Below, one piece after another: positions 4,367 to 29,605 of a DNA stretch of 32,233 nt. Made by a program: the position numbers and the translations under genes. The notes beneath the pieces are model-generated. The model worked only from the letters and a program-made list of their open reading frames with translations. It was not told the DNA's origin and ran no database searches. The first letter of the stretch is position 1. Each line of letters opens with the position of its first letter. This DNA comes from a bacterium (GTDB lineage: Bacteria; UBP14; UBA6098; JAFGQG01), in contig JAFGGQ010000110.1 in assembly GCA_016930435.1 (NCBI GenBank), forward strand, positions 1-32,233. The letters are read 5' to 3'.

Positions 4367-5698
4367 ATGAAAGACCCGGGTATCGAGCCTCAAAAGGTGC
4401 ATGAGACTCTAAACAGTTATATGTTGGCTGATGGTTTTGAACTGGTTGTGGACCTTAAAAAAAGTCAGGGGATGTATATTTTTGATTCCAGGCAGAAAAA
4501 GTGGTATCTGGACTTTTTTTCCTGTTTTGCTTCTCTTCCGATCGGATTCAATCATCCCAAAATGATGGTCCCCGAATTTTTGGAAAAGCTGGCTTATGTT
4601 TCTGTGAACAAGCCTTCAAACTCCGATATTTATACAAAGGAAATGGCTGATTTTGTGGCTACCTTTGCCCGGATCGCCAAACCACCGGAATTCAAACATC
4701 TTTTTTTTATATCCGGAGGCGCTCTGGCCGTTGAAAATGCATTGAAAACCGCTTTCGACTGGAAGATCCGAAAGAATATGGCCAGGGGTATGAAGGGTGA
4801 AGTTGGAACATCCGTGATACACTTTCAGGAGAGTTTCCATGGCCGAAGCGGATATACCTTGAGCCTGACCAATACTGCTGATCCCCGCAAAACCATGTAT
4901 TTCCCGAAATTTGATTGGCCACGCGTAGTAAATCCCAAGATTGCCTTTCCCCTTAATGAAGAAAATTTAAGACGGGTAGAGGAACTGGAGCAACAGAGCT
5001 TGAATCAGATAAAGGAGGCTCTCACCCGATATGGCGATGACATTGCAGCGATCATCATTGAGCCCATTCAGGCTGAGGGTGGTGATCATCATTTCCGGCC
5101 AGAATTTTTGCAATCTCTCCGCACAATTGCTGACGAGAGCGAACTTATGCTTATCTATGATGAGATCCAGACGGGCATGGGTCTCACCGGAACCTTATGG
5201 GCATACGAACAACTCAGTCCCCCTCCTGATATTCTGGCTTTCGGCAAAAAGAGCCAGATTTGCGGAATTATGGCAACAGACAGGGTAGATGAGATCGAGG
5301 ATAACGTGTTTAAAATTTCCTCCAGGTTGAATTCCACCTGGGGTGGAAACCTGATCGACATGGTCCGCTGCCAGAAATACCTGGAGATCATGGAGGAGGA
5401 AAATCTCATCGAGAATGCCCGGGCAATGGGAGAATATCTTTTTGAAAACCTGCTTGAGGTACAGCAGGAATTTCCCGGGTCGGTTTTCAACGCCAGGGGA
5501 CGCGGCTTAATGGTTGCATTTGATATGGCTGATGACCAAATCCGAACCAAGTTTCTGGATGAAATTTATACCCGTGAACTGATACTCATAAAATGCGGAT
5601 TTAACAGTATCCGCTTCCGCCCTTCCCTGACCGTAAAGAAAGAGGACATCGATAAAGCCTTTGTGATTATCCGGGAGGCTTTACGGGCGATCAGTTGA
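4367..5698 (+). CDS. lat: L-lysine 6-transaminase (lysine epsilon-aminotransferase)
   Basis: A PLP-dependent class-III aminotransferase of 443 residues that moves the epsilon-amino group of L-lysine to 2-oxoglutarate. This gives allysine, which cyclises to piperideine-6-carboxylate, and glutamate. Family-specific stretches typical of actinobacterial Lat are clear: NKPSNSDIYT (81-90), FISGGALAVENALKTAFDWK (about 114-133), FHGRSGYTLSLTNT (157-170), YDEIQTGMGLTGT with the PLP-binding Asp265, AFGKKSQICG with the Schiff-base Lys294, and SRLNSTWGGNL (319-329). A clean AAGGAG lies seven bases before the ATG. The enzyme is known from lysine catabolism and from beta-lactam and osmolyte precursors. No aminoadipate-semialdehyde dehydrogenase, lysine cyclodeaminase-type gene or ectoine gene is in view, so the fate of the product is open. 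It is followed at 25 bases by a cupin. Confidence 0.95.
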   Translation: MKDPGIEPQKVHETLNSYMLADGFELVVDLKKSQGMYIFDSRQKKWYLDFFSCFASLPIGFNHPKMMVPEFLEKLAYVSVNKPSNSDIYTKEMADFVATFARIAKPPEFKHLFFISGGALAVENALKTAFDWKIRKNMARGMKGEVGTSVIHFQESFHGRSGYTLSLTNTADPRKTMYFPKFDWPRVVNPKIAFPLNEENLRRVEELEQQSLNQIKEALTRYGDDIAAIIIEPIQAEGGDHHFRPEFLQSLRTIADESELMLIYDEIQTGMGLTGTLWAYEQLSPPPDILAFGKKSQICGIMATDRVDEIEDNVFKISSRLNSTWGGNLIDMVRCQKYLEIMEEENLIENARAMGEYLFENLLEVQQEFPGSVFNARGRGLMVAFDMADDQIRTKFLDEIYTRELILIKCGFNSIRFRPSLTVKKEDIDKAFVIIREALRAIS

Positions 5699-5723
5699 TC
5701 ACCAAACAACCTTGTGAGGCGAG

Positions 5724-6071
5724 ATGAAAATAGCTCATTACAGCGCAGTGCCCTTAGAAGAAGTCGTTTCTGAAGATACCCGCGGGGTAAATGTCCGCTG
5801 GCTGATCTCGGAAAAGGATGAAGCCCCTAATTTTGCTATGCGCAGGTTCGTTGTGGAACAAGGAGGCAATACCCCTTTTCATGACCATCCATGGGAACAT
5901 GAAGTCTATATATTAGGAGGTTCCGGCAGCCTGATATTTGAAGGGAAAAAATACAAATTGCTGCCCGGGGTTTTTGCTTATATACCCCCGAACACAAAAC
6001 ACCAGTTCATTAATAGTGGAGAAGAAAGCCTGGAATTCCTATGCCTGGTTCCCCATCAGAAGCAAAGCTAA
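5724..6071 (+). CDS. Small single-domain cupin protein
   Basis: A 115-residue cupin-2 family protein. Cupin motif 1 is PFHDHPWEHEVYIL (His53, His55, His59/Glu60) and motif 2 is PGVFAYIPPNTKHQFIN (His93), a complete metal site. Single-domain cupins of this size act as small isomerases, dioxygenase-like enzymes or metabolite binders; the substrate cannot be read from sequence. It lies 25 bases after lat with GAGGCGAG as a plausible ribosome site, so it is probably co-transcribed and may act on a lysine-derived metabolite (inference). It converges with the minus-strand cluster that ends at 6187. Confidence 0.9.
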   Translation: MKIAHYSAVPLEEVVSEDTRGVNVRWLISEKDEAPNFAMRRFVVEQGGNTPFHDHPWEHEVYILGGSGSLIFEGKKYKLLPGVFAYIPPNTKHQFINSGEESLEFLCLVPHQKQS

Positions 6072-6186
6072 ATGAAAGAAGCCGACCTTCCCGAACGATT
6101 TAGGAGTAAACCCCGGAGTATATTCAGTTGGAGGTTGGGATGGCAAATCAGGTTTATTTTGACCTGTTCAAGAAGTTGAATACCAA

Positions 6187-6861
6187 CTATATTGAAGGCT
6201 TCAACGGGGGAGGGGTTTGATCCCCTTTGGTTATCTGAACAACTGTTTTCCCGCCTAATATATCCTGGGCTGTAACCCCAGCAGAAATGATCAGTCTTAT
6301 AGCATCCTCAATGCTGATATCCAGGGTACACACCTCATCTTCAGGGAACATCAGCATATAGCCCGAAGTGGGATTAGGAGTAGTAGGGACATATACCATC
6401 ACTGCTTTGCGGCCATCGGGAAGCAAAAGATCGGGCCGGGAGGTAATAAAACCAATGCTGTAAGCATGGGCATGAGGAAACATCACAAGGACTGGGGTTT
6501 TAAAGATCACCTTCTGTTGGGTAATAATCACATCTGAAACCTTCTGGACTGCATTATATATAGTCCGGAGAACGGGGAAGATATTGAATATTTTCTGGGC
6601 GAAATTGATAGCTTTCTTGCCTAAATAATTGCGGGTAAAAAGTCCGATCAGGAACATAACTATCAAGAATGTAATGATCCCTAAACCCGGCACTCTCGAG
6701 CCATTGGGAAAGGTTATCCATCGAGCCAGGAGATTACCCAGAAAGATATCGAGTTTCCCGAACACAAACCAGAACACCAGTAAAGAAACAAGTGCAGGCG
6801 CGGAGACCAGTATCCCGGTTACCAGGTACCCGCTAATCTTTTTGCCCAGCTTCTCCTTCAT
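6187..6861 (-). CDS. DUF502 family membrane protein
   Basis: A 224-residue integral membrane protein. I prefer the ATG at 6861, which has GGGAG just upstream; a longer start at 6891 lies deeper inside divIC. Two hydrophobic segments (GYLVTGILVSAPALVSLLVFW and GLGIITFLIVMFLIGLF) flank a short loop. They are followed by the family's soluble part with IFPVLRTIYNAVQ, VMVYVPTTPNPTSGYMLMFP and ISAGV. DUF502 proteins are widespread and functionally unassigned; the plant homologues are COV1-like. The gene overlaps the 3' end of divIC by 29 bases, so the two are translationally linked. Confidence 0.85.
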   Translation of the reverse strand: MKEKLGKKISGYLVTGILVSAPALVSLLVFWFVFGKLDIFLGNLLARWITFPNGSRVPGLGIITFLIVMFLIGLFTRNYLGKKAINFAQKIFNIFPVLRTIYNAVQKVSDVIITQQKVIFKTPVLVMFPHAHAYSIGFITSRPDLLLPDGRKAVMVYVPTTPNPTSGYMLMFPEDEVCTLDISIEDAIRLIISAGVTAQDILGGKTVVQITKGDQTPPPLKPSI

Positions 6862-7195
6862 TTTTCTCCCTGAACCGGTAAATTTTTTCATTATCTTTAG
6901 CTAATCCGTATTTTTCCCGTGCCAGCCTTTCAATATAAGTTGTATCATTCTCTAAGCGCTCAAGTTCTTTCTGTAGGGACTCCCCCTCAGCCGCCGCGTT
7001 CTCTAATTCTTCTTCTAAAGACTTTCTCAGGTTACGATAGCGGGTTACCGCAATCAAACCATTATCTCCCATCAGGATCATATAAGCAACCACGATACAA
7101 AGGAGTATCAATAAAAATTTTTTGACCCTTTTCTTAACCTCGTTACGTTTTAGGGGGTTACCCCTCAGGAACTTGAGGTGCTCTGTGTTTTCCAT
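6833..7195 (-). CDS. divIC: Septum formation initiator, DivIC/FtsB family
   Basis: A 120-residue single-pass division protein. Residues 1-24 are basic and cytoplasmic, about 25-43 form a transmembrane helix (KFLLILLCIVVAYMILMG), and about 50-85 form a coiled coil rich in Glu and Leu (LRKSLEEELENAAAEGESLQ). The family-typical ERLAREKYGLAKDNEKIYRF segment follows. FtsB/DivIC is known to join FtsL and FtsQ in the septal complex that activates cell-wall synthesis. It follows the enolase fusion by 26 bases. That is the gene order seen in many bacteria, where eno precedes ftsB/divIC. Confidence 0.92.
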   Translation of the reverse strand: MENTEHLKFLRGNPLKRNEVKKRVKKFLLILLCIVVAYMILMGDNGLIAVTRYRNLRKSLEEELENAAAEGESLQKELERLENDTTYIERLAREKYGLAKDNEKIYRFREKNEGEAGQKD

Positions 7196-7221
7196 AAGAC
7201 CATATCCCTTTTAAATAAAGG

Positions 7222-10050
7222 TCATTTTAATTTATAAACGGGCAGTTGTTCCCTGATCAATTCATAGAGGGGGACTTCCTGCCGGACTTCATCAATAATC
7301 TGTAATCCGAGGCTAAGCTGTTCAAAATTGAGTTTATCCTTCAGCACCTTTGCAAACTGGACATTATCTGAGCCTGCAGTTTCTTTAATATCATTAACTA
7401 TTTTTTGAACCAAGTCAATAATTTTCTGTTCTTCCTCAGCAGATAATTTCACTTCGTTCATTGGAATGTCCCTTCCGCACTGGTTTTCCAACTCAATGAG
7501 TTTCTCGAATCGAGTTTTTTCTTTCTGGTGTGTTGCCAGTTTTTCACTTAGGCGGTCTAAAAGTTTTGAACCGCCGTTAAAAGCGAAAACTCTGGACATG
7601 GCCTCGGTCATTTGCTCCTGCATTACCTCGCAAAGTTCCTGCCCGTGAAGGGCTCCTTTCAATCGGGCCAGGGCCAGGGACATAGAAAGTACAGCGTTCA
7701 TTCCCAGGTTGATCTTTCTTTGCATCACTTTGATATTGTCATTTTGAGTAGCATCCGGTGCGATAGTTCCCCGTTGCCTTGCCAGGTCGCACTCTATTTG
7801 CAGCATTGTCCGGTCCAGCTCCATTATTTCACCCAATTCACTGACCTTTTTTCCCAGGAAGAGTGGGGATAGGATTTTACCAACATTGTCCACAGCGTTA
7901 AGGCATCCCTTGCCATTATAGCGTTTAGCCCGGTGCCAGAGTTCCGAAAGTTCCTTATCCTTCATGGATGCAATCATATCATCGGTCACTTCCTTTTTAA
8001 ACCGGTAGGTCTTGTCGGTAACCTGCAGCTTAAAGAGTTCCGGGAATTTTTTAACGATGGGCTCTCCGGCGGGGATAATGCTGTCGATGAGGTGAATAGC
8101 CTCGTCGGTACCCGCCGAGGTACCCAATGGAGTCGCCCCTTCAAAGGTAAGCAATCTTTCATAAAACGGATCGTTAGGGATACCCACTTTCAAATCGACT
8201 GCCACGGTAGGGATGCCGGCATTAGTAGATGCTTCACGTGCCACAATGCTGGTTATCGTCAATCTTTCAATGAAATTTTTGCCTAAATTTTGGATTTCAT
8301 GATCAGAGGGTTTTTCATTATCCTTACGGGCCTGCTTACGCAGTGCTTCCTGTATAACCTTGACCACTGATTCGTACTTATAAAGGCGCTCGGAATTTGC
8401 CCCCCCGCCAGCTTTAAGCCCCAATGAATTTATTGCAAGGGCTACCTGAGCCTCAAAATCCTCAATGGGGGATTTTGACCGGTGGGACACTACAGTTTCA
8501 AGCTTCTTGCCTATTGCGGTTAAAAGAGCAAGAACTCCCTCTGTTACCGAACCGATCTGATTCAACTTGATCAGCGCTGTATTGATCAATCCCTTTTCAG
8601 CCTTTTCCTCTATGGATGAATCCTTGGTGGTGATGTTATCATCTCCAATAACATGGATCTTATCACCCATGCTTTTCATTATCAACCACCAGCCTTCATC
8701 GTCATCCTCGGCAAAACCGTCCTCGATAGAAACGATTGGTAGATCATCCTCTTCAATAGCCTTATGGTAGATTTCCAATAGCTGGTCACGTGACAGTACC
8801 GTTTTATCACTGTCCCGCCAGGCCATATAGATCCCGATTCCTTCTTCACCTGTAAGCCCTTTTTCTTCCCGGTAGGCAGTTTCAGCTTCGGATGCTGCGG
8901 GGTCCAGGGCCATTGCCACATCCTTGCCGGGTATATACCCACAGTCAAGAATGGCCTGTTTCTGCATCCTCCAAAGTCTTTGCACCGGAAGAATATCACC
9001 GGGTTCTTTCCGGATAAATGGAGCCAAACCACCCTCTGTTCCCACTCCTTTTACGATACAACCTTCGGAGTTCTCGATAATCTCCTTCAGACGGGTTTGC
9101 AGATTAACGGTCATCTCCTGGGCGTCTTCATAATTCCTGGCGCTGAGTGGGATAAACATACTCTCCTGCAGGCTGATATTACTTTCGGGGAATTCCTTTT
9201 CAGTATGGCGCCCACCCATTCCACAATTCCGGAACTCCCAGGGCACCCACTTTTCATTACCATCGGAGAGAATGACCTTCTTCATGCGGGTATAGATCAT
9301 CAGTTTTTTCACCTTTTCTACCCGGTCAACCCATTTAAAAGACCCTGCCTTACGGTCTAAACCGGCTTTTTCAGATGCTTTTTTAGCTTTTGATTCCCGT
9401 TCCCGGAATTCCCTGTATTTACCGGGATCCGCCATGAGAAAATCAAGCAGGCCCACAATCCCAATACCCAGGCAGAGCCTTCCAAGATAAACCATCACAG
9501 CTGCTTTACTGATGAGTCCGACTATCAGCAGGACAATGGCTAATGGCAGGAAAACAGACGAAAGATTCCGGCTGGCGCGTGGGCCTGCTGCTGCAACAGC
9601 AAGGTTATAGGGCGCATCAGGATGGTAATCCAGACGGTTTTTTTTAACCCCGGGAAAAGCCCCGTAAGGGATGGTAATAAACATCCGAACATACCAGAAA
9701 AACTTTTTCAAAAAACCGCTCTCAATCCTGGATTGGGCATCATCCAATAACAAGCTGCACAAGGCGTTCAGTTTCACTGCTTTAAGGTAATGCCCCATCT
9801 CGTGAATGGCGATACCGGTATGAAAGGTAATATAAAGGAAAAGCAACGAAATAATGGTCTCGGGACTGGCGAACATGAACCGAAGCACATCACCCCGATT
9901 ACTTACCTGGTTGGCGATGGATAATACCGAAGATATAAAGGCCACGTGAAAAGAAACCAGAATATGATTCGCAATAACCCACCCGGTATCCAGTGCCGCA
10001 TTACCGGGCTTTGACAACCGCCCCTTTAATTTGAAAACCAGTTTAAACAT
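7222..10050 (-). CDS. Membrane M50-like peptidase domain fused to a circularly permuted enolase
   Basis: A 942-residue fusion with GAGGT before its ATG. Residues about 25-215 form a membrane domain with an HEMGH site (His83, Glu84, His87), AAAGPRASRN (153-162) and GLLDFLMADPG (200-210, Asp203), in the order of M50 site-2 proteases. A basic linker leads to an enolase TIM barrel (about 255-570). Its residues correspond to the canonical set: His282, Glu296 (QESMFIP), Glu339 (TEGG), Mg ligands Asp383 (ALDPAASE), Glu443 (SIEDGF) and Asp470 (GDDNITTK), Lys495 (ALIKLNQIG), Arg524-Ser525 (SHRS) and Lys546. The enolase N-terminal cap comes after the barrel (about 596-805): IVAREASTNAGIPTVAVDL, PLGTSAGTDEA (Ser645 as second-Mg loop Ser), GKGCLNAVDNVGKILSPL, LGMNAVLSMSLALARLK. 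A helical tail of about 137 residues follows. It plausibly interconverts 2-phosphoglycerate and PEP at the membrane. Peptidase activity is uncertain. Confidence 0.9.
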   Translation of the reverse strand: MFKLVFKLKGRLSKPGNAALDTGWVIANHILVSFHVAFISSVLSIANQVSNRGDVLRFMFASPETIISLLFLYITFHTGIAIHEMGHYLKAVKLNALCSLLLDDAQSRIESGFLKKFFWYVRMFITIPYGAFPGVKKNRLDYHPDAPYNLAVAAAGPRASRNLSSVFLPLAIVLLIVGLISKAAVMVYLGRLCLGIGIVGLLDFLMADPGKYREFRERESKAKKASEKAGLDRKAGSFKWVDRVEKVKKLMIYTRMKKVILSDGNEKWVPWEFRNCGMGGRHTEKEFPESNISLQESMFIPLSARNYEDAQEMTVNLQTRLKEIIENSEGCIVKGVGTEGGLAPFIRKEPGDILPVQRLWRMQKQAILDCGYIPGKDVAMALDPAASEAETAYREEKGLTGEEGIGIYMAWRDSDKTVLSRDQLLEIYHKAIEEDDLPIVSIEDGFAEDDDEGWWLIMKSMGDKIHVIGDDNITTKDSSIEEKAEKGLINTALIKLNQIGSVTEGVLALLTAIGKKLETVVSHRSKSPIEDFEAQVALAINSLGLKAGGGANSERLYKYESVVKVIQEALRKQARKDNEKPSDHEIQNLGKNFIERLTITSIVAREASTNAGIPTVAVDLKVGIPNDPFYERLLTFEGATPLGTSAGTDEAIHLIDSIIPAGEPIVKKFPELFKLQVTDKTYRFKKEVTDDMIASMKDKELSELWHRAKRYNGKGCLNAVDNVGKILSPLFLGKKVSELGEIMELDRTMLQIECDLARQRGTIAPDATQNDNIKVMQRKINLGMNAVLSMSLALARLKGALHGQELCEVMQEQMTEAMSRVFAFNGGSKLLDRLSEKLATHQKEKTRFEKLIELENQCGRDIPMNEVKLSAEEEQKIIDLVQKIVNDIKETAGSDNVQFAKVLKDKLNFEQLSLGLQIIDEVRQEVPLYELIREQLPVYKLK

Positions 10051-10132
10051 TTAATTACCTCACGGGTTATATTATTTAAATACCTTATACTTTACAATCA
10101 AAAAAACAGCATTTTCTTGGAATTTAAGCTGC

Positions 10133-12322
10133 CTACAAAAGATCTGACCTTTTTCGGAGGATCCATTCGGTAGCTAAACACACAATAAACAGGATCAGGA
10201 ACAGTGGATGATCCCACATGTTCTTTTCCATTTTGACTCTGATGCTTTTTTCAGAAATCCTGATGGAATCAGATAATCCTTTTAGTCGAGAGGGTTCAAA
10301 ATAACGACCATTGGTGCGCTCCGCAAGCCTTAACAGGGTATTTTTGTCCATTCTAACGTTCTGAAATTCCAGGCTATATTCTTCTACAATGAAAATCCGG
10401 GTGCTCTTTGAAAATGGATTATCCCTGATAAATGCCTCTCCACTGAGCTGGTATTTTCCGGGAGGCAATGAGGGAATCCGGTGTTCGTATATCCCTTTTT
10501 CATATTCATCGAGGAGAATATCCAGTGGTTTAAACGCTATGGAATCGGCCTCTGATATGCGGGTTAATTTTACCTTGACAGTAGCTCCGCTAACAGCCTG
10601 GTTGTTATCATTGCGTAAAAAGCTTGTAATGTTTATCCGTTCTCCATTTTTATAAACATTCTTATCGGTCTTGAGCACAAAGGGTTCCATCTCATCTTTA
10701 ACCAGCAGCCACTGGATCAGGTTATTCATCAGTTGCTCATAAACCTGCACATCCTTCCCGAATCCTGCGGGTACAAATCCCCAGCGCCAAATGGGAAAAG
10801 CGGTAATGGAGAATATTTTTCCTGCCTTATAATTGCCGGCAACAAAAAGAGCCACTTCCCGCAATTTAGGATGGACCAGCAAGTCCTTGGCTCCTTCATC
10901 AAGTGGCCCTATCATCAGGAACCCTTCGAGTGGAGGCAATTCTAAAAATGACTGCTCCAGCGGTAAATTATCGCTGCTTTCAATATTGGTAATGGAATGA
11001 TAAAGACCCTCAATACTCAGCACGGCATTGAAATTATCCAGAGTAACCTTGTTCGTACCCTTACTCAAATGAAAGGGCAAGATATTATCCCAGTAAGGTT
11101 CCTGAGCAGAACTGAGATTGAGGTTCTCCTGAATGAAATACAGGATCGAACCGCCTTTTTCAACATAATTCTGAAATAGTTCCCCGTAATTCTTCCGGGC
11201 AAGGTCACTGATAACATTGAATAATATTATACATTCATAGCGGGATAGTTCTTCCGGTTCCGAAGGGAATACTGGCAATTGTCCTAAAATGCGGGTTTTT
11301 CCAATATTATATTCTTCAAACTCAATATTTTCATTATCAGCGATAACCCTCTTGAAAAAGGAATATTCCCAATCAAGAGCCTTGGTGACAAGGAGAATTT
11401 TACGTTTGGTTTCAAGTATCTTAACGGAGAAATATTTGCTGTTATTTTTTCGTGAAAATTCACCATCCTGGAATGGGACCGTGACCAGAAAATTCTGTAG
11501 TCCCGGCTGGTTGGACTGCACATCGAATTTTACTTCATTGAGCTCCCCTACTTCGCTGAGTTCCACCTGTTGCTTGGCAATAGTCTCCTGATTCAGGGAG
11601 ATGGTCACGTTCACCCTTTGTCCTGCCATACCCCAGCTTTCCAGATAGACCCTCACCGGGAAGGATTGTTCCTGGTAAGCAATATCGTTTGCCACCACCC
11701 TCTTTATGCCTACATCACGGGGTGCCTCCGGGTCACCTATTCCAACCGTGTAAATCGGATATTTAAGGTCTTCGGTAACTTGCAGGGGGGTAATCCCTAA
11801 ATTCGATTGTCCATCGGACAGTATCAACAGGGCTCCAATCTCCTCAGGTGTATAAACACTATTGAGGTTAAGAATGATTTCCCCCAGAGCGGTAGCATTG
11901 CGTTCGAAAGTAAGCTCTTCGAGAGGTACTAATGTATCTCCAAAAGCATAATAATCAATGGGATATTTCCCTTCCAGAGCATTTAATTCCTCTCCTTTCA
12001 GGATTTGTTCAACAGTTTCAGCTCTTTTGCCGGTATTATCCTCAATGGTCATGCTGCGGGAGTCATCAACTACAACCATGAGATGTGGCTTGATGATCTC
12101 CTTTTTAGTGCCAATAAAGAGGGGTTCGAAGATGGATAGAAAGAGGAAGAAAAAGGCGGCGATTCTCAACGCTATCAGCAGTTTCTTGCGTCCCCTGCCA
12201 AGTGGGGGATTGGTTATCCGGTAAGAAAGCACAGCCATTACCAGGGCGATCAAAAAGCACCCGATAACCAGGCCAATAAATTTTGCCTGCAGGGCTATGT
12301 CAACTGTTTCGCAACTGAACAT
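10133..12322 (-). CDS. Membrane-anchored VWA-domain protein
   Basis: A 729-residue envelope protein. Two N-terminal helices (about 13-33 and 48-70) precede a von Willebrand factor A domain with a MIDAS-like DDSRS (86-90) and LILSDGQSN (167-174). After Ig-like sheets comes a Rossmann-like segment (about 305-530, beginning RKILLVTKALDWEYSFFKRV). This resembles the amidotransferase-like fold seen in large FCB-group membrane VWA proteins, although no catalytic Cys is evident. A further beta-rich domain and a C-terminal helix (LFLILFIVCLATEWIL) end at RKRSD. The bulk therefore lies in the periplasm between two membrane anchors. Its ATG overlaps the stop of the ABC exporter by one base (TAATG), so the pair is coupled. 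Role unknown; related proteins occur with BatA/B-type or MoxR systems, absent here. Confidence 0.85.
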   Translation of the reverse strand: MFSCETVDIALQAKFIGLVIGCFLIALVMAVLSYRITNPPLGRGRKKLLIALRIAAFFFLFLSIFEPLFIGTKKEIIKPHLMVVVDDSRSMTIEDNTGKRAETVEQILKGEELNALEGKYPIDYYAFGDTLVPLEELTFERNATALGEIILNLNSVYTPEEIGALLILSDGQSNLGITPLQVTEDLKYPIYTVGIGDPEAPRDVGIKRVVANDIAYQEQSFPVRVYLESWGMAGQRVNVTISLNQETIAKQQVELSEVGELNEVKFDVQSNQPGLQNFLVTVPFQDGEFSRKNNSKYFSVKILETKRKILLVTKALDWEYSFFKRVIADNENIEFEEYNIGKTRILGQLPVFPSEPEELSRYECIILFNVISDLARKNYGELFQNYVEKGGSILYFIQENLNLSSAQEPYWDNILPFHLSKGTNKVTLDNFNAVLSIEGLYHSITNIESSDNLPLEQSFLELPPLEGFLMIGPLDEGAKDLLVHPKLREVALFVAGNYKAGKIFSITAFPIWRWGFVPAGFGKDVQVYEQLMNNLIQWLLVKDEMEPFVLKTDKNVYKNGERINITSFLRNDNNQAVSGATVKVKLTRISEADSIAFKPLDILLDEYEKGIYEHRIPSLPPGKYQLSGEAFIRDNPFSKSTRIFIVEEYSLEFQNVRMDKNTLLRLAERTNGRYFEPSRLKGLSDSIRISEKSIRVKMEKNMWDHPLFLILFIVCLATEWILRKRSDLL

Positions 12323-22630: not shown

Positions 22631-24199
22631 CTATTTAAGTCCAAACTCATTTTCCGAAAACTTTACTACCGTATAAACATAAAGTTCCGTATCCGGGTTC
22701 TTATATGCATCTGGTGACAGACCGGCTTTCTGGCTGCACAGCTGTCGGAGGAACTGGTCCCGGTCCCAGCCGGTTTCGGTAGCAACCTGGGGCAAAAAAG
22801 TCCCTGAACTATTTCCCTTTCTGACCAGTACTCCATGTTTACCCATCTCTATCCGGCTATAATCACTTACCTTTTGCAACGGGGAGAGTACCGAGATCTC
22901 AATTTCGATATTCTCCAGCTCATCTTCGATCACCGGCCGGAAGCGGGGATCCCTTGTAGCGGCAGAGATAGCCCGGCTGATAACCGATTGGTAAAGAGGT
23001 TGTGTAGCTACCATCTCACCGATACAGCCCCGCAGGTCTCCATTTTCCTTCAAGGTGACAAAAACCGCGCCATCCTCGACCAATTTCGGGTTGTCCGGCA
23101 CCGGCTCATCCAGAATCCGCCCTTCCCGAACAAAACCATCAATACTGCGGCGTGCTAAACCCAGCAGATAAACCTTCTCCTCTTCGGTCAGGCTGTATTC
23201 AGACTCGGACTCTATACTGTCCGACTTCTGATTACCGGCGTCATCAATCTGGGCAAAGGCAACCGCGCAATAACCTACTACGCGCGCTTTTTCTCCGATA
23301 GGGACATCACCAGAGTTGGCATATTTTAAAAGAACAGCTCTTGAATTTGGCTTTGCCTGGGCTAAATTCATCAGGGTTATTACCCCACCAATCCCACAAT
23401 ACTCTACTCTCCCACTCCTTATCCCACTTATCAAAGCCTCGGTATCAAGAGCAGTGGTATATCCAATCGCCCTTCTGTCCATTTCCACCGCTACATCGTA
23501 GGGATGGTAATGGGACATATCTGAGCTTGCAATATAAATAAGTTTATACTCTTTGTCAAGCTTTTTCAGGGCATTAGTAAGGATATCGACGTGTTCAGAG
23601 CTCTGGCTTCCAAATAAAATGGGCACTATCTTTATGTTATTACCCAATATATACTGTAAAAAGGGGATCTCCGCTTCCAGAGAATGTTCCGGAATGTGAG
23701 GTTCCCTGTCAAATTTAAAAACCGGGTCAAAATCAAGCAGCTTTTGGGCTACCTCCTCGTCCACCCTGACAACTCCCAGGGGGGTTCGGAATCCACCTTC
23801 CGCCCAAACCGCTATGGAGTTACTGGCTACCCTGTGGCAGGCCCCGATCAAAACATAGGTATATTCACGGTATTTTTCTACATCACGTGCCAGCAGTTTA
23901 AAGCCATGGGCGGCCACTCCGCCGGAATATACAAATCCGGCATGAGGGGAAACTAAACCCCATAAATCGCCCTCTAAAGGTATATCCTCTGTCTCCATGA
24001 AAACGCTGTCCAGAAATGCCTTTAACGCCTCACTATCTGCGGGATACCACATGCCGGACACGGCTGGTTTTCGAATATTATCCATAGATAACCCCTCCTC
24101 GCTTTCTTTATCCGATCCTCCCTTGGTATTCCCCTTCTCGCTGCACCCCCAAAGAAGAAAGATCACCAGGATCAATGATGTTATTCTTTTAAAGTCCAT
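22631..24199 (-). CDS. MEMO1–AMMECR1 fusion (AmmeMemoRadiSam proteins B and A) with lipoprotein signal
   Basis: About 522 residues from the ATG at 24199, which has AGGATG six bases upstream; longer starts overlap the previous gene. Residues 1-19 form a lipoprotein signal (MDFKRITSLILVIFLLWGC). A MEMO1 domain follows (about 40-320) with SPHAGFVYSGGVAAHGF, GACHRV, EHSLEAEIPFLQ, SSDMSHY and EYCGIGG. These carry the three His and the Cys that line the MEMO active-site-like pocket related to extradiol dioxygenases. An AMMECR1 domain occupies the C-terminal third (FVTLKENGDLRGCIGEM, ISAATRDPRFRPV, FLPQVATETGWDRDQFL). The usual third partner, a radical SAM enzyme, is not in the window. Membrane anchoring is unusual, as family members are generally cytoplasmic. 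The gene sits in the operon of the polytopic synthase-like protein and the TonB receptor. Confidence 0.92.
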   Translation of the reverse strand: MDFKRITSLILVIFLLWGCSEKGNTKGGSDKESEEGLSMDNIRKPAVSGMWYPADSEALKAFLDSVFMETEDIPLEGDLWGLVSPHAGFVYSGGVAAHGFKLLARDVEKYREYTYVLIGACHRVASNSIAVWAEGGFRTPLGVVRVDEEVAQKLLDFDPVFKFDREPHIPEHSLEAEIPFLQYILGNNIKIVPILFGSQSSEHVDILTNALKKLDKEYKLIYIASSDMSHYHPYDVAVEMDRRAIGYTTALDTEALISGIRSGRVEYCGIGGVITLMNLAQAKPNSRAVLLKYANSGDVPIGEKARVVGYCAVAFAQIDDAGNQKSDSIESESEYSLTEEEKVYLLGLARRSIDGFVREGRILDEPVPDNPKLVEDGAVFVTLKENGDLRGCIGEMVATQPLYQSVISRAISAATRDPRFRPVIEDELENIEIEISVLSPLQKVSDYSRIEMGKHGVLVRKGNSSGTFLPQVATETGWDRDQFLRQLCSQKAGLSPDAYKNPDTELYVYTVVKFSENEFGLK

Positions 24200-24210
24200 A
24201 ATCATCCTAT

Positions 24211-26379
24211 TTAAATCCATATCGGCATAGCCAATATCAAAATGATCAGCCAGAGTATCAGCGAGCCCGTAATTCCCATTAAAGGGATGAAGATTATACC
24301 GGTTAATACCGCGCCCATTGCAGCGCCCAGGCTATCCAGCCCAAATACTATGCCGCCGGCATTAACAGTGGAGGGGAACCGGCTTTCGAACCAACGCACA
24401 CCCAGGGGGAATAACATCCCGGTCAAGGTGCCGGCAATCAGTTGTAAAGCCATAAAACATAACGTCCCACTGATATAACCCAACCGCTGATACAATGACG
24501 TCCACTTAAAGAGAAAGAGCATTATCAATACAAATATAATCCATAAAAGGGACCATAACCGAAAGAAGATAAACCGCTCTTTATTCCTGGTGAGATTTGC
24601 CCCGGTAACTAATCCCAGCATAAATACACTGGTTAAAACGCCCACTAACCAGTATAGATAGCCAAACAGTGCCTGGAATAAGTAAAGTACAATTAACTCA
24701 GTAAGTATCCCTCCTAATCCACCAACAATAATTAATACAATAGTCCCTAAATTTTTGTTAAATATATATCTATTTAATAGTTTGACAAGTAAAAAAACGG
24801 TCAAAAAGAATATCAGCCAGTGTTCCAGCCGGAGGAGTTTCAGTTTTTTCAATAAAACTCCGCCACCGGTTAATTTAAACCATTCCTGAAGACCAATATA
24901 ATAGGCAATTGGAGAGAAATCGCGGTTGACTATCAACTTCTCCCTGGCATCTTTGATCAACATGCTCTCCAGGTTATTCTGCCGGAAAGGGTCGAGGAAA
25001 TAAGCCAATACCTCGCGGTTTAAATAGCGGTTTCTAATACCCCTTTCCTCCAGCCGGGCATTAAGGAGATCAGGGTCCAGCTCCAGGGGACTTCGAGGTG
25101 AAGCAAAAAACAAAAGGCCATTGTCCATTTGAACCAGCCGGACATGTATAAATACATTCTGAAGGGCCTCCCTGACTGAATTCACCATAACCTGCTCCTC
25201 ACTGGAAATATAATTTACTCCTACATTCAGTTGAAAGGCAAAAATACCATCGTAATCCAGTCTCCCTTTTATTTCCTGGAAAAATTCCAGGGTATAGAAG
25301 CGGTTCATAAAACCCGATTGGGGATTAGGCAACAGGAGCATAATCACCTCGAAGTTCCGATTACTTTTTTTGATCCAGAAACGCGCATCGGAATACTCTA
25401 CATCCACACGTGGCTCGTTCATCGCCCGTTCTACTTTCGGGAAAAAAGGACGTGTAACCTCAAGGATTCGGGGATCTACTTCCAGGTAGGTTATACTCCG
25501 GGGATGATGCTGAAGGGCTACACCTACAGCTCCCTCGTAGATTCCACCTACGAGCAATACCCTTTCAGGCCCCGGATGAGCCAGCAAACATAGATTAACC
25601 AATGATTCGAGATAGACCGTATCTGCAGTCGCGGCTACCAGACTCCCATTTTCAAATAGGTACTGCTCACCCTGGCGGGATAACACCAATATCTTGCCAT
25701 ACCGGGATTCATAGGACTGGCTCTCATAACCTTTCCAATAGAGTTTATCCATTACGCCGGAAAGTGATTGAGCATTCATAGCAAGCAACATCAAAAGAGA
25801 GGTTAATATTACTGAAGTTATCTTTACCGGGGTCCGGGCGGTAAAGATCCAGATTATCCCCAGGAAAGTCCCGATCATAATGAAGCTATGTACCGGCGGG
25901 ATACGGGCTACCATTATCAGGCTTAGGATACCCCCCAGTACTGCGCCCAGCGCTTCAAAAATATAAACTGTTGATGCTTTTAAACCCGAACTTCGTGCTT
26001 TCCTGCAGAGTTGCCCGAAAAAAGTACCCGCTAATATACCGAAAGGCACCAAAGCCAGCAATAATAATAGGATTATCCGCCAGAAATCCCATAACCGACC
26101 GGGATGAACCTGTAGTATTGATCCCAATAGCTTTATCCAGAAGAATGAAAAGGGAAGGGAAAACGCCAAAGCCACCTGGACTAATCCCAAATTCCGAAAC
26201 CGGGAAAAAATTCCGCTGCCGGCAGCATATAGCACCAACCAGAAGAAGAAGAACAAAGCTACCACCAGCTCATTAGAGCGAAGCAGAGCGATACTCTCCC
26301 GCAGCAGAAAAACCTGGCTGTAAAGACTGGCAAATCCCAGAGACCAGCTCCACAGTTTAATGCGGCTTCGGTCGTTCAT
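24211..26379 (-). CDS. Polytopic membrane protein with central spermidine-synthase-like domain
   Basis: 722 residues in three parts. About six hydrophobic helices occupy residues 1-215. A spermidine/spermine-synthase-like Rossmann domain follows (about 220-510). A second set of about seven helices runs from 525 to 722. The whole resembles the fused MFS/spermidine synthase family. In the Rossmann part the SAM-binding loop reads LLVGGIYEGAVGVALQHHP rather than GGGDGG, YLEVDPRILE and YSDARFWI are kept, and the gate-keeping Asp motif is replaced by LLLPNPQSGFMNRFYT, so polyamine synthesis is doubtful. A perfect-consensus promoter lies just upstream, making this the first gene of the five-gene run down to rpmE. 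Substrate unknown. Confidence 0.87.
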   Translation of the reverse strand: MNDRSRIKLWSWSLGFASLYSQVFLLRESIALLRSNELVVALFFFFWLVLYAAGSGIFSRFRNLGLVQVALAFSLPFSFFWIKLLGSILQVHPGRLWDFWRIILLLLLALVPFGILAGTFFGQLCRKARSSGLKASTVYIFEALGAVLGGILSLIMVARIPPVHSFIMIGTFLGIIWIFTARTPVKITSVILTSLLMLLAMNAQSLSGVMDKLYWKGYESQSYESRYGKILVLSRQGEQYLFENGSLVAATADTVYLESLVNLCLLAHPGPERVLLVGGIYEGAVGVALQHHPRSITYLEVDPRILEVTRPFFPKVERAMNEPRVDVEYSDARFWIKKSNRNFEVIMLLLPNPQSGFMNRFYTLEFFQEIKGRLDYDGIFAFQLNVGVNYISSEEQVMVNSVREALQNVFIHVRLVQMDNGLLFFASPRSPLELDPDLLNARLEERGIRNRYLNREVLAYFLDPFRQNNLESMLIKDAREKLIVNRDFSPIAYYIGLQEWFKLTGGGVLLKKLKLLRLEHWLIFFLTVFLLVKLLNRYIFNKNLGTIVLIIVGGLGGILTELIVLYLFQALFGYLYWLVGVLTSVFMLGLVTGANLTRNKERFIFFRLWSLLWIIFVLIMLFLFKWTSLYQRLGYISGTLCFMALQLIAGTLTGMLFPLGVRWFESRFPSTVNAGGIVFGLDSLGAAMGAVLTGIIFIPLMGITGSLILWLIILILAMPIWI

Positions 26380-27535: not shown

Positions 27536-28708
27536 TTATGGTTTGGAAGGCAATGGAATTAACCTTAATTGACCATCCCCGGATAGTATCACCCGGACAC
27601 GAACCGGGCTTCTAAGTGCGGAATCACCAGGACTCGCCACAAACACTTTCGGTTCACTCAAAACTGCTTCTTGACCGGCAAGGGTTTCCGACTCCGATAT
27701 TTTTCCTTTACCGTCATCAGATAATGCAACATCTTCATCATAAAGAAGCATGCTTTTTTTCTGCTGGACAATTTCGACCCGCTCCTCAGCGGAAGCCATC
27801 ACAGGGTAATCCCTTTCAGCAGCTTCTGACAGATCTTCCCTCCCCTTCATTGCCATTTGTGGCTGAGGGGCCTCCATTTTAGCTATCTCGTCAGCCCCCA
27901 AATCCGGCTCGGTAGGCCTGAAACGAGCCCATAATTCACGGTTAATCAATAAGCTGGTCACCCTTTCCGCAGGGAAATCATCATCCTGAACCTTAATCAA
28001 ATCGGCGATTACATCCTGCCCCGGCAGGGATTCTCCGGCAAGCAAACGCAACAATTCCGGGGAAACCTCCAGAATCCCAACGTAAATATTGTCCAGCTGT
28101 TCCGATGTTTGCGCCTGGTAATCCGCCAATATCCGGGGCCGGTTGGGCGCTGAACGGTACTCTAACTGCAGATCCGTAAAACTCTCCGCTATATATGAGA
28201 TTATTACTATAGCAATAAGCAGACAGATTATCACCGTCCCCGCAAAGACCTCAGCAAGCTTCCACCCCCTGATGTTAGGATAAAATTGAGCCACCCATTC
28301 CTTAACTGAAAATACTAAACCCGGAGAGGGGCCGCCAACCTGATTAATCAAACCCTGCGGGGTACCCCTCAAGCCTGCTTTCTGATCATAAACGGCAGAA
28401 CGAACCGCAAAAAGCTTATCAAGACATTGCGGACAGCTCAGTAAATGACCAGCTATCTCCTTTTCTTCTGCAGCCTGCAGTTTATTTTCCAGAAAAGCAC
28501 CCAGAAGCTCCTCATCCGGACAAGCATCTATGCTATTATCCCCGGATAATGGTTTTATAACCAGGGATTGTTTAAGCTCATCAAGAAACTTCACCTTTTC
28601 GGAGCAGCGGGTGCAATGGCCCAGATGATCACGAAAAGCAGCGTTCTCCTTCTCGCCCAACAAGCCGTCCAGATACTTTAAAATAGTAATGTATGAAGCG
28701 CATTTCAT
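27536..28708 (-). CDS. Transmembrane anti-sigma factor with two zinc fingers
   Basis: A 390-residue protein from the ATG at 28708; an in-frame GTG at 28720 is possible. Two zf-HC2 modules lie at the N-terminus: Cys3...His28-x3-Cys32-x2-Cys35 and Cys63...His88-x3-Cys92-x2-Cys95, the zinc-binding anti-sigma fold that holds ECF sigma factors. One transmembrane helix (about 152-173) separates them from a 215-residue extracytoplasmic part that is acidic and Met/Ala/Glu-rich, with no recognised domain, ending RVRVILSGDGQLRLIPLPSKP. It follows the sigma-factor gene by about 30 bases, the usual pairing for envelope-stress control. Two stacked zinc fingers are less common than one. It converges on galT with only 9 bases between. 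Confidence 0.87.
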   Translation of the reverse strand: MKCASYITILKYLDGLLGEKENAAFRDHLGHCTRCSEKVKFLDELKQSLVIKPLSGDNSIDACPDEELLGAFLENKLQAAEEKEIAGHLLSCPQCLDKLFAVRSAVYDQKAGLRGTPQGLINQVGGPSPGLVFSVKEWVAQFYPNIRGWKLAEVFAGTVIICLLIAIVIISYIAESFTDLQLEYRSAPNRPRILADYQAQTSEQLDNIYVGILEVSPELLRLLAGESLPGQDVIADLIKVQDDDFPAERVTSLLINRELWARFRPTEPDLGADEIAKMEAPQPQMAMKGREDLSEAAERDYPVMASAEERVEIVQQKKSMLLYDEDVALSDDGKGKISESETLAGQEAVLSEPKVFVASPGDSALRSPVRVRVILSGDGQLRLIPLPSKP

Positions 28709-28738
28709 GTCTATTTTCACCGTATATATACGACGGAA

Positions 28739-29548
28739 TTAATCCATTTTTTCAAACAGATATTTTAGCTTTTTTAATGCCTTTTCAATCTCATAGTAGA
28801 GCCTTTTGGGATTTTTAACGCCCAGCTTTCCGGCAATCTCAGGCACAGGCATATCCTTATAAAAACGGAGTACTAAAAGGGTTCGCTGTTCAAAGCTTAG
28901 CTGTCTCAGTGCCCTTCTCATTATCTGCAAATGCTTAATCTTCCGGGTTTCATTATCCCTTTGTATCAGCTCTTCCTGCGGATCGGCTGGAGAGATCGGG
29001 TCCACCGGCGACTCAATAAACAATGCATCCAGAGCAACCTCCCGGTCTCCCGCACCCTCCGAAACATAACGCTCCCTCAACGCTGAACCAAGATTCGCTT
29101 CAAGATTATCCAGTGTCATTTTCACTGCTGAATATTCAGCTTCCGGAAATTCGTTGCGGAGAACATCGAAAAGCTCGAAAGAATCGAAGTAGCCATCACG
29201 GTAGTATAATATAAATACCCTCTGTTCTAAAAGCGAAAGGTTTTGGACATATTTCGGGAGATTCCGCCGGCCATACTGCGATCGATAATAATCGGTTATC
29301 AGGTTCCGAACCACAACCGTCAGCCAGGTGGAGAATTTGCACCGGAAACCAAACCCGGAATAATCCTTTTCCCGTAGATGTGACATTACAAAAAGGTAAA
29401 TGTCAGGCACCAGGTCCCTTTCACCCGGGGTGGGTTTAACCTCATAGTAGATGGTTGAATAGACCAGATCGGAATATTTTTCCACAAGGGCAGTCCAGCC
29501 CTTCACGGATCTCGAGGTCAATAGCGATACAATTTTCTTATCGGTCAT
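28739..29548 (-). CDS. ECF-like RNA polymerase sigma factor
   Basis: About 269 residues from the ATG at 29548 (MTDKKIVSLLTSRSVKGW). A longer TTG reading to 29605 would place the start on a promoter-like -35 box, so I reject it, although 29548 has no clear ribosome site. Region 2 spans about residues 16-95 (ALVEKYSDLVYSTIYYEV...FSTWLTVVVRNLITDYYRS). Region 4 is at about 210-265 (LRQLSFEQRTLLVLRFYKDMPVPEIAGKLGV, a helix-turn-helix). The linker of over 100 residues is longer than in typical ECF factors and holds an extra region-4-like segment (LSLLEQRVFILYYRDGYFDSFELFDVL). It is paired with the downstream anti-sigma factor; target promoters are unknown. Confidence 0.88.
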   Translation of the reverse strand: MTDKKIVSLLTSRSVKGWTALVEKYSDLVYSTIYYEVKPTPGERDLVPDIYLFVMSHLREKDYSGFGFRCKFSTWLTVVVRNLITDYYRSQYGRRNLPKYVQNLSLLEQRVFILYYRDGYFDSFELFDVLRNEFPEAEYSAVKMTLDNLEANLGSALRERYVSEGAGDREVALDALFIESPVDPISPADPQEELIQRDNETRKIKHLQIMRRALRQLSFEQRTLLVLRFYKDMPVPEIAGKLGVKNPKRLYYEIEKALKKLKYLFEKMD

Positions 29549-29577
29549 ATTCAGTGCAGGTGAATAATTATGATGTA

Positions 29578-29605
29578 AATTTAAAGAGGGGCGCCTGAAA
29601 GTCAA
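29578..29605 (-). promoter_or_regulatory. Putative promoter of the sigma/anti-sigma pair
   Basis: On the minus strand TTGACT (29605-29600), 16 bases, TAAATT (29583-29578), placing the transcript start about 20-25 bases before the ATG at 29548. It fits the 16-base spacing seen at other sites. Autoregulated ECF genes usually have a different, factor-specific promoter; none was recognised. Confidence 0.4.

Follow-up and report, generated by a model that had tools for sequence, protein, structure and literature searches.

The 32,233-nucleotide stretch of bacterial DNA analysed here (contig JAFGGQ010000110.1; the window) carries a single, uninterrupted open reading frame of 942 codons whose predicted product joins a membrane domain resembling M50/site-2-type metalloproteases to an enolase in which the order of the two domains is swapped. 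We mildly favor a reading of this product as a membrane protein that would combine an intact site-2-like protease centre with a working, circularly permuted enolase. Since all fused forms retain the active-site residues of both parts, both catalytic centres are probably functional, and the protein is probably a working membrane enzyme. The features on which our analysis relies are the following.

10058 to 10061, minus strand: GAGG, a Shine-Dalgarno-like site in the upstream sequence, 7 nucleotides 5' of the ATG.
7222 to 10050, minus strand: the whole gene (M50-like domain plus circularly permuted enolase, 942 amino acids), an architecture common to genomes G001, G061, G224, G389 and the contig-split G011.
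9361 to 9993, minus strand: M50/site-2-protease-like membrane domain, residues 20-230.
9790 to 9804, minus strand: HEMGH, residues 83-87, putative zinc site; H83, E84, G86 and H87 invariant in the six fused members.
9580 to 9594, minus strand: AAAGP motif, residues 153-157; A154, A155, G156 and P157 invariant in the six fused members.
9421 to 9450, minus strand: LLDFLMADPG, residues 201-210, with D203 as putative third zinc ligand; L201, D203, A207, D208, P209 and G210 invariant.
8320 to 9273, minus strand: enolase TIM barrel, residues about 260-577, from the Pfam match, active-site columns and fold.
7597 to 8268, minus strand: enolase N-domain placed after the barrel, residues about 595-818, from the Pfam match, the re-ordered alignment and active-site columns.
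7225 to 7596, minus strand: variable helical C-terminal extension, residues 819-942.
6833 to 7195, minus strand: DivIC/FtsB-like neighbour (Pfam PF04977), 26 nucleotides downstream of the gene.

In ordinary enolases, the N-domain precedes the barrel. The window protein matches Pfam Enolase_C (PF00113) at residues 272-574 (E 3.4e-47; 161.6 bits against a cut-off of 21.5) ahead of Enolase_N (PF03952) at residues 694-808 (E 1.8e-11; 44.7 bits against a cut-off of 35), and its enolase is therefore circularly permuted; the same order was found in all family members that we scanned. The preliminary description of this DNA had recognised a glycolytic enolase module. An enolase is indeed present, but with its N-domain on the C-terminal side of the barrel. 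Consistent with a permutation, the eno model TIGR01060 aligns to the native order in two separate stretches (203.4 bits) and to the re-ordered enolase in a single unbroken stretch (model positions 38-415; 215.6 bits). Both scores lie under the equivalog cut-off of 300 bits for this model, and the permuted enolase is therefore to be seen as a divergent family member and not as a proven functional orthologue. When re-ordered, the permuted enolases share 31-35% identity with four canonical enolases over about 420 aligned positions, and the barrel in the full-length structural model matches enolases at Z 11-12.6. The C-terminal extension had been put forward as a third, helical module; it is better described as a variable appendage, given that it shows 36-40% identity among the relatives and is nearly absent in G011.

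The catalytic positions were taken from the established active site of yeast enolase, where they are S39, H159, E168, E211, D246, E295, D320, K345, H373, R374, S375 and K396. All 12 are kept in each of the seven permuted enolases. In the window protein, the barrel contributes H282, E296, E339, D383, E443, D470, K495, H523, R524, S525 and K546, and the N-domain contributes S645, the equivalent of Ser39. The window enolase thus shares with the canonical phosphopyruvate hydratase (PF03952 plus PF00113; TIGR01060) both domains, the complete set of checked active-site residues and the barrel fold, but differs from it in the swapped domain order, the attachment of a membrane domain, the insertions within its N-domain and the sub-equivalog score. 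Judged from its sequence, the permuted enolase, with barrel first and N-domain second, is likely to be active and would still interconvert 2-phosphoglycerate and PEP.

Four carriers of the fusion also possess a canonical enolase, and the permuted copy is therefore not simply the housekeeping enzyme in these bacteria. The canonical eno gene lies directly after the fusion gene in G001, after a gene fragment in G459 and after a tail fragment in G464; in the window genome and in G011 it is found on a separate contig. The presence of a canonical enzyme in four carriers would fit an enolase domain that binds 2-phosphoglycerate or PEP mainly to regulate the protease, much as CBS domains do on other site-2 proteases. 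A precedent exists in SpoIVFB, a site-2 protease whose ATP-binding CBS domain has been proposed to control the protease, although this domain is not strictly required in vivo (PMC6242693). We regard such a purely sensory role as quite unlikely, because E339 and K495, which are catalytic, show a conservation as strict as that of the ligand-binding residues and because the permuted copy of G061 is the only Enolase_C match in this 1.4-Mb Cloacimonadota MAG. This assembly is possibly incomplete, and a loss of the canonical eno gene from G061 is not proven.

Residues 20-230 of the window protein suggest a divergent intramembrane metalloprotease domain of the M50/site-2 type, with the residues of the zinc site kept. 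The motifs HEMGH, AAAGP and LLDFLMADPG are located where the preliminary description had placed them, and the conservation that it asked about for His83, Glu84, His87 and Asp203 holds throughout: none of the six fused members deviates at the HExxH residues or the distal Asp, and their membrane domains share 45-61% identity with that of the window protein. Peptidase_M50 (PF02163) is matched by the window protein at residues 74-229 with an E-value of 0.006, below the Pfam cut-off (16.4-17.2 bits against a gathering score of 27.2 bits). It is nevertheless the sole Pfam family matched by all six members, in each case weakly and sub-threshold (best E 1.3e-4), and about 100-155 residues of the profile are covered in every one of them, so that the similarity extends well beyond HExxH as had been proposed. 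A chance occurrence of HExxH is ruled out by this profile similarity together with the motifs that are invariant across the homologues. Structural comparisons based on AlphaFold models of medium confidence (pLDDT 67-68) place the S2P protease of Methanocaldococcus jannaschii (3b4r) at the top, weakly in Foldseek (E 0.58; model pLDDT 67) and likewise first in VIA-align (Z 7.3; rmsd 8.6 over 138 residues; model pLDDT 67), a ranking that is no more than suggestive of a site-2-protease fold; a profile search of the PDB, using the membrane domain as query, gave no matches. With M. jannaschii S2P and SpoIVFB the window protein shares the HExxH, AAGP-like and LD motifs in identical order, and with SpoIVFB also the attachment of a soluble domain. 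It differs from the M50/site-2 proteases in having LLDFLMADPG without an NPDG/LDGG sequence, in its sub-threshold sequence match and in carrying an enolase in place of a CBS or PDZ domain.

We lean slightly toward protease activity of the M50-like domain. The membrane part might instead be a retired protease fold that serves only as an anchor, tethering an active permuted enolase for a local supply of PEP at the membrane. The weak Pfam M50 scores are in keeping with such an anchor, as is genome G205, in which an M50-like protein that lacks HExxH adjoins a permuted enolase whose active-site residues are complete. The membrane part can therefore persist without the protease motif, and an anchor remains a candidate role in a part of the family at least. 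We consider the anchor reading unlikely, as HExxH and D203 would be needless for a mere anchor and yet are invariant in six of six fused members at the degree of domain divergence given above.

As judged from sequence comparisons, the fusion of an enolase to an M50-like domain is real and occurs in several phyla. Full-length homologues with identical domain order are encoded by G001 (record JAFGQG010000166.1, locus L033; 64% identity), by G061 (Cloacimonadota MAG, record JACNJR010000006.1, locus L034, positions 4971-7712; 67%), and by G224 (locus L063; 51%) and G389 (locus L088; 50%), the latter two representing one further phylum. The covalent union described for the window protein is consequently present in at least four additional genomes, and in five when G011 is counted, where two contig ends each carry a part of the gene. 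Two genomes of the same phylum as G061, G459 and G464, contribute only a C-terminal fragment located at the edge of a contig; in G464 this fragment is just a tail of 61 residues. The fusion is intact in four other genomes; in the distant relative G205 the parts are separate neighbouring genes. A sequencing or assembly join is ruled out by the recurrence of the fusion in independent genomes. Within the window's class, which comprises all genomes of its phylum that were searched, 3 of 17 genomes possess the fusion gene. A profile of the membrane domain, run against 386 sampled genomes, gave five matches, four to the fusion family and one to the G205 relative. Our search of plasmids returned partial matches only; these extended over roughly one third of the query, none covered 80%, and the top ones were annotated as eno. 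Both domains are under purifying selection (dN/dS 0.20 and 0.18, G224 versus G389).

In a phylogenetic tree, the permuted enolases form one clade (support 100/97) separate from 30 canonical enolases; G205 sits on a very long branch within this tree, and its placement is unsure. A recent duplication of the neighbouring eno gene finds no support, as the permuted clade lies deep in the tree. The permuted enolase of the window groups with the Cloacimonadota copy (99/91) and not with that of G001, a member of the window's own family, and this grouping points to a transfer of the permuted enolase gene between phyla.

Some relatives extend the architecture further. G224 and G389 encode giant proteins of 2216 amino acids (L063, 2962-9612, minus strand) and 2080 amino acids (L088, 3560-9802, minus strand), respectively, in which the M50-like domain and the permuted enolase are followed, after several hundred residues, by parts of pyruvate, phosphate dikinase (PPDK), namely the ATP-binding part (PF01326) and the phospho-histidine part of PEP-utilising enzymes (PF00391). 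The PEP/pyruvate barrel of PPDK was not matched in either giant. Overlapping open reading frames on the same strand of G205 (L110, 1896-7110, minus strand) encode a PPDK-like protein, the M50-like protein and the unfused permuted enolase, and the match of the first of these to PPDK is confined to positions 19-508 of 865. The PPDK-like part, the M50-like part and the permuted enolase are thus associated in two arrangements, fused in the giants and as adjacent genes in G205. These relatives differ from PPDK itself in the unmatched PEP/pyruvate barrel and in the joining or adjacency of its remaining parts to a permuted enolase and an M50-like protein. The PPDK parts are a feature of G224, G389 and G205 and are absent from the window protein. 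We rejected the G205 gene as specific kin of the PPDK part of the giants, as the similarity between them is insignificant even though both match PPDK; since the two are not demonstrably close, one old system and a repeated association are both possible.

Such fused and adjacent arrangements would be expected if ancestral PPDK-like ATP-binding and phospho-histidine parts acted jointly with the M50-like domain and the permuted enolase on PEP chemistry, with the window protein as a reduced form of this station for phosphotransfer or one that works with an unlinked partner. We deem this very unlikely. A PPDK-like part was found neither in nor beside the fusion gene in the window, G001 and G061; the PPDK_N proteins of the window genome, of 881 and 864 amino acids, are encoded elsewhere, on other contigs; and the PPDK parts of G205 and the giants cannot be tied closely to each other.

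The fusion gene is part of a run of genes on the same strand that encode an ABC transporter, a 729-residue protein, the fusion protein, the DivIC-like protein and a DUF502 protein. By inspection, a comparable small reading frame lies after the fused gene in G061 (L034), where it is DivIC-like, and after the fused gene and eno in G001 (L033). The 729-residue membrane protein immediately upstream (10133-12322, minus strand) has a weak MG2 match only, and G001 encodes a similar protein that is likewise upstream of its fusion gene. Elsewhere in the window, positions 22631-24220 (minus strand) encode a single 529-residue protein in which an AMMECR1 domain comes after a Memo domain. A stretch at 27536-29605 (minus strand), 17 kb from the fusion gene, contains a sigma-70-like factor (28739-29605) followed by a putative anti-sigma factor with N-terminal repeats rich in CxxC. 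PADLOC gave no match to anti-phage defence genes.

Taken together, these data lend themselves to a model in which a protein of the cytoplasmic membrane would possess two intact catalytic centres, its N-terminal, divergent M50/site-2-type domain holding the permuted enolase at the membrane. The enolase would face the cytosol, as we infer from the charged stretch that comes after the final hydrophobic segment. Binding of ligands to the enolase might in addition control the protease, a speculative step, drawn by analogy, that we hold to be somewhat doubtful. Doubtful, too, is the broader proposal of a new class of membrane enzyme, in which the coupling of a natural enolase permutant to a site-2-type protease would let the 2-phosphoglycerate/PEP state of glycolysis directly set intramembrane proteolysis; its fuller form would add the ATP-binding and phospho-histidine part of PPDK without the PEP barrel and would bring PEP chemistry, phosphoryl transfer and proteolysis together at the membrane.

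In the open-access literature, with subscription papers outside the scope of our search, we found no report of an enolase that is circularly permuted in nature or joined to a site-2-type domain; nor did the open-access literature yield anything relevant on enolase fusions or membrane anchors. This agrees with the earlier suggestion that the architecture is undescribed. The component folds, enolase and M50, are both known; what appears to be new is the permuted form of enolase and the joining of this form to an M50-like domain.

Enolase is among the most conserved enzymes. Its permutation constitutes a natural experiment, in which the order of barrel and N-domain has been swapped while the active site built by both is fully kept. 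Relatives with PPDK parts point to a role of the assembly in PEP chemistry at the membrane. Should both halves of the protein prove functional, uncultured bacteria from several phyla would have a membrane protease that is directly and physically connected to the flux of central carbon metabolism.
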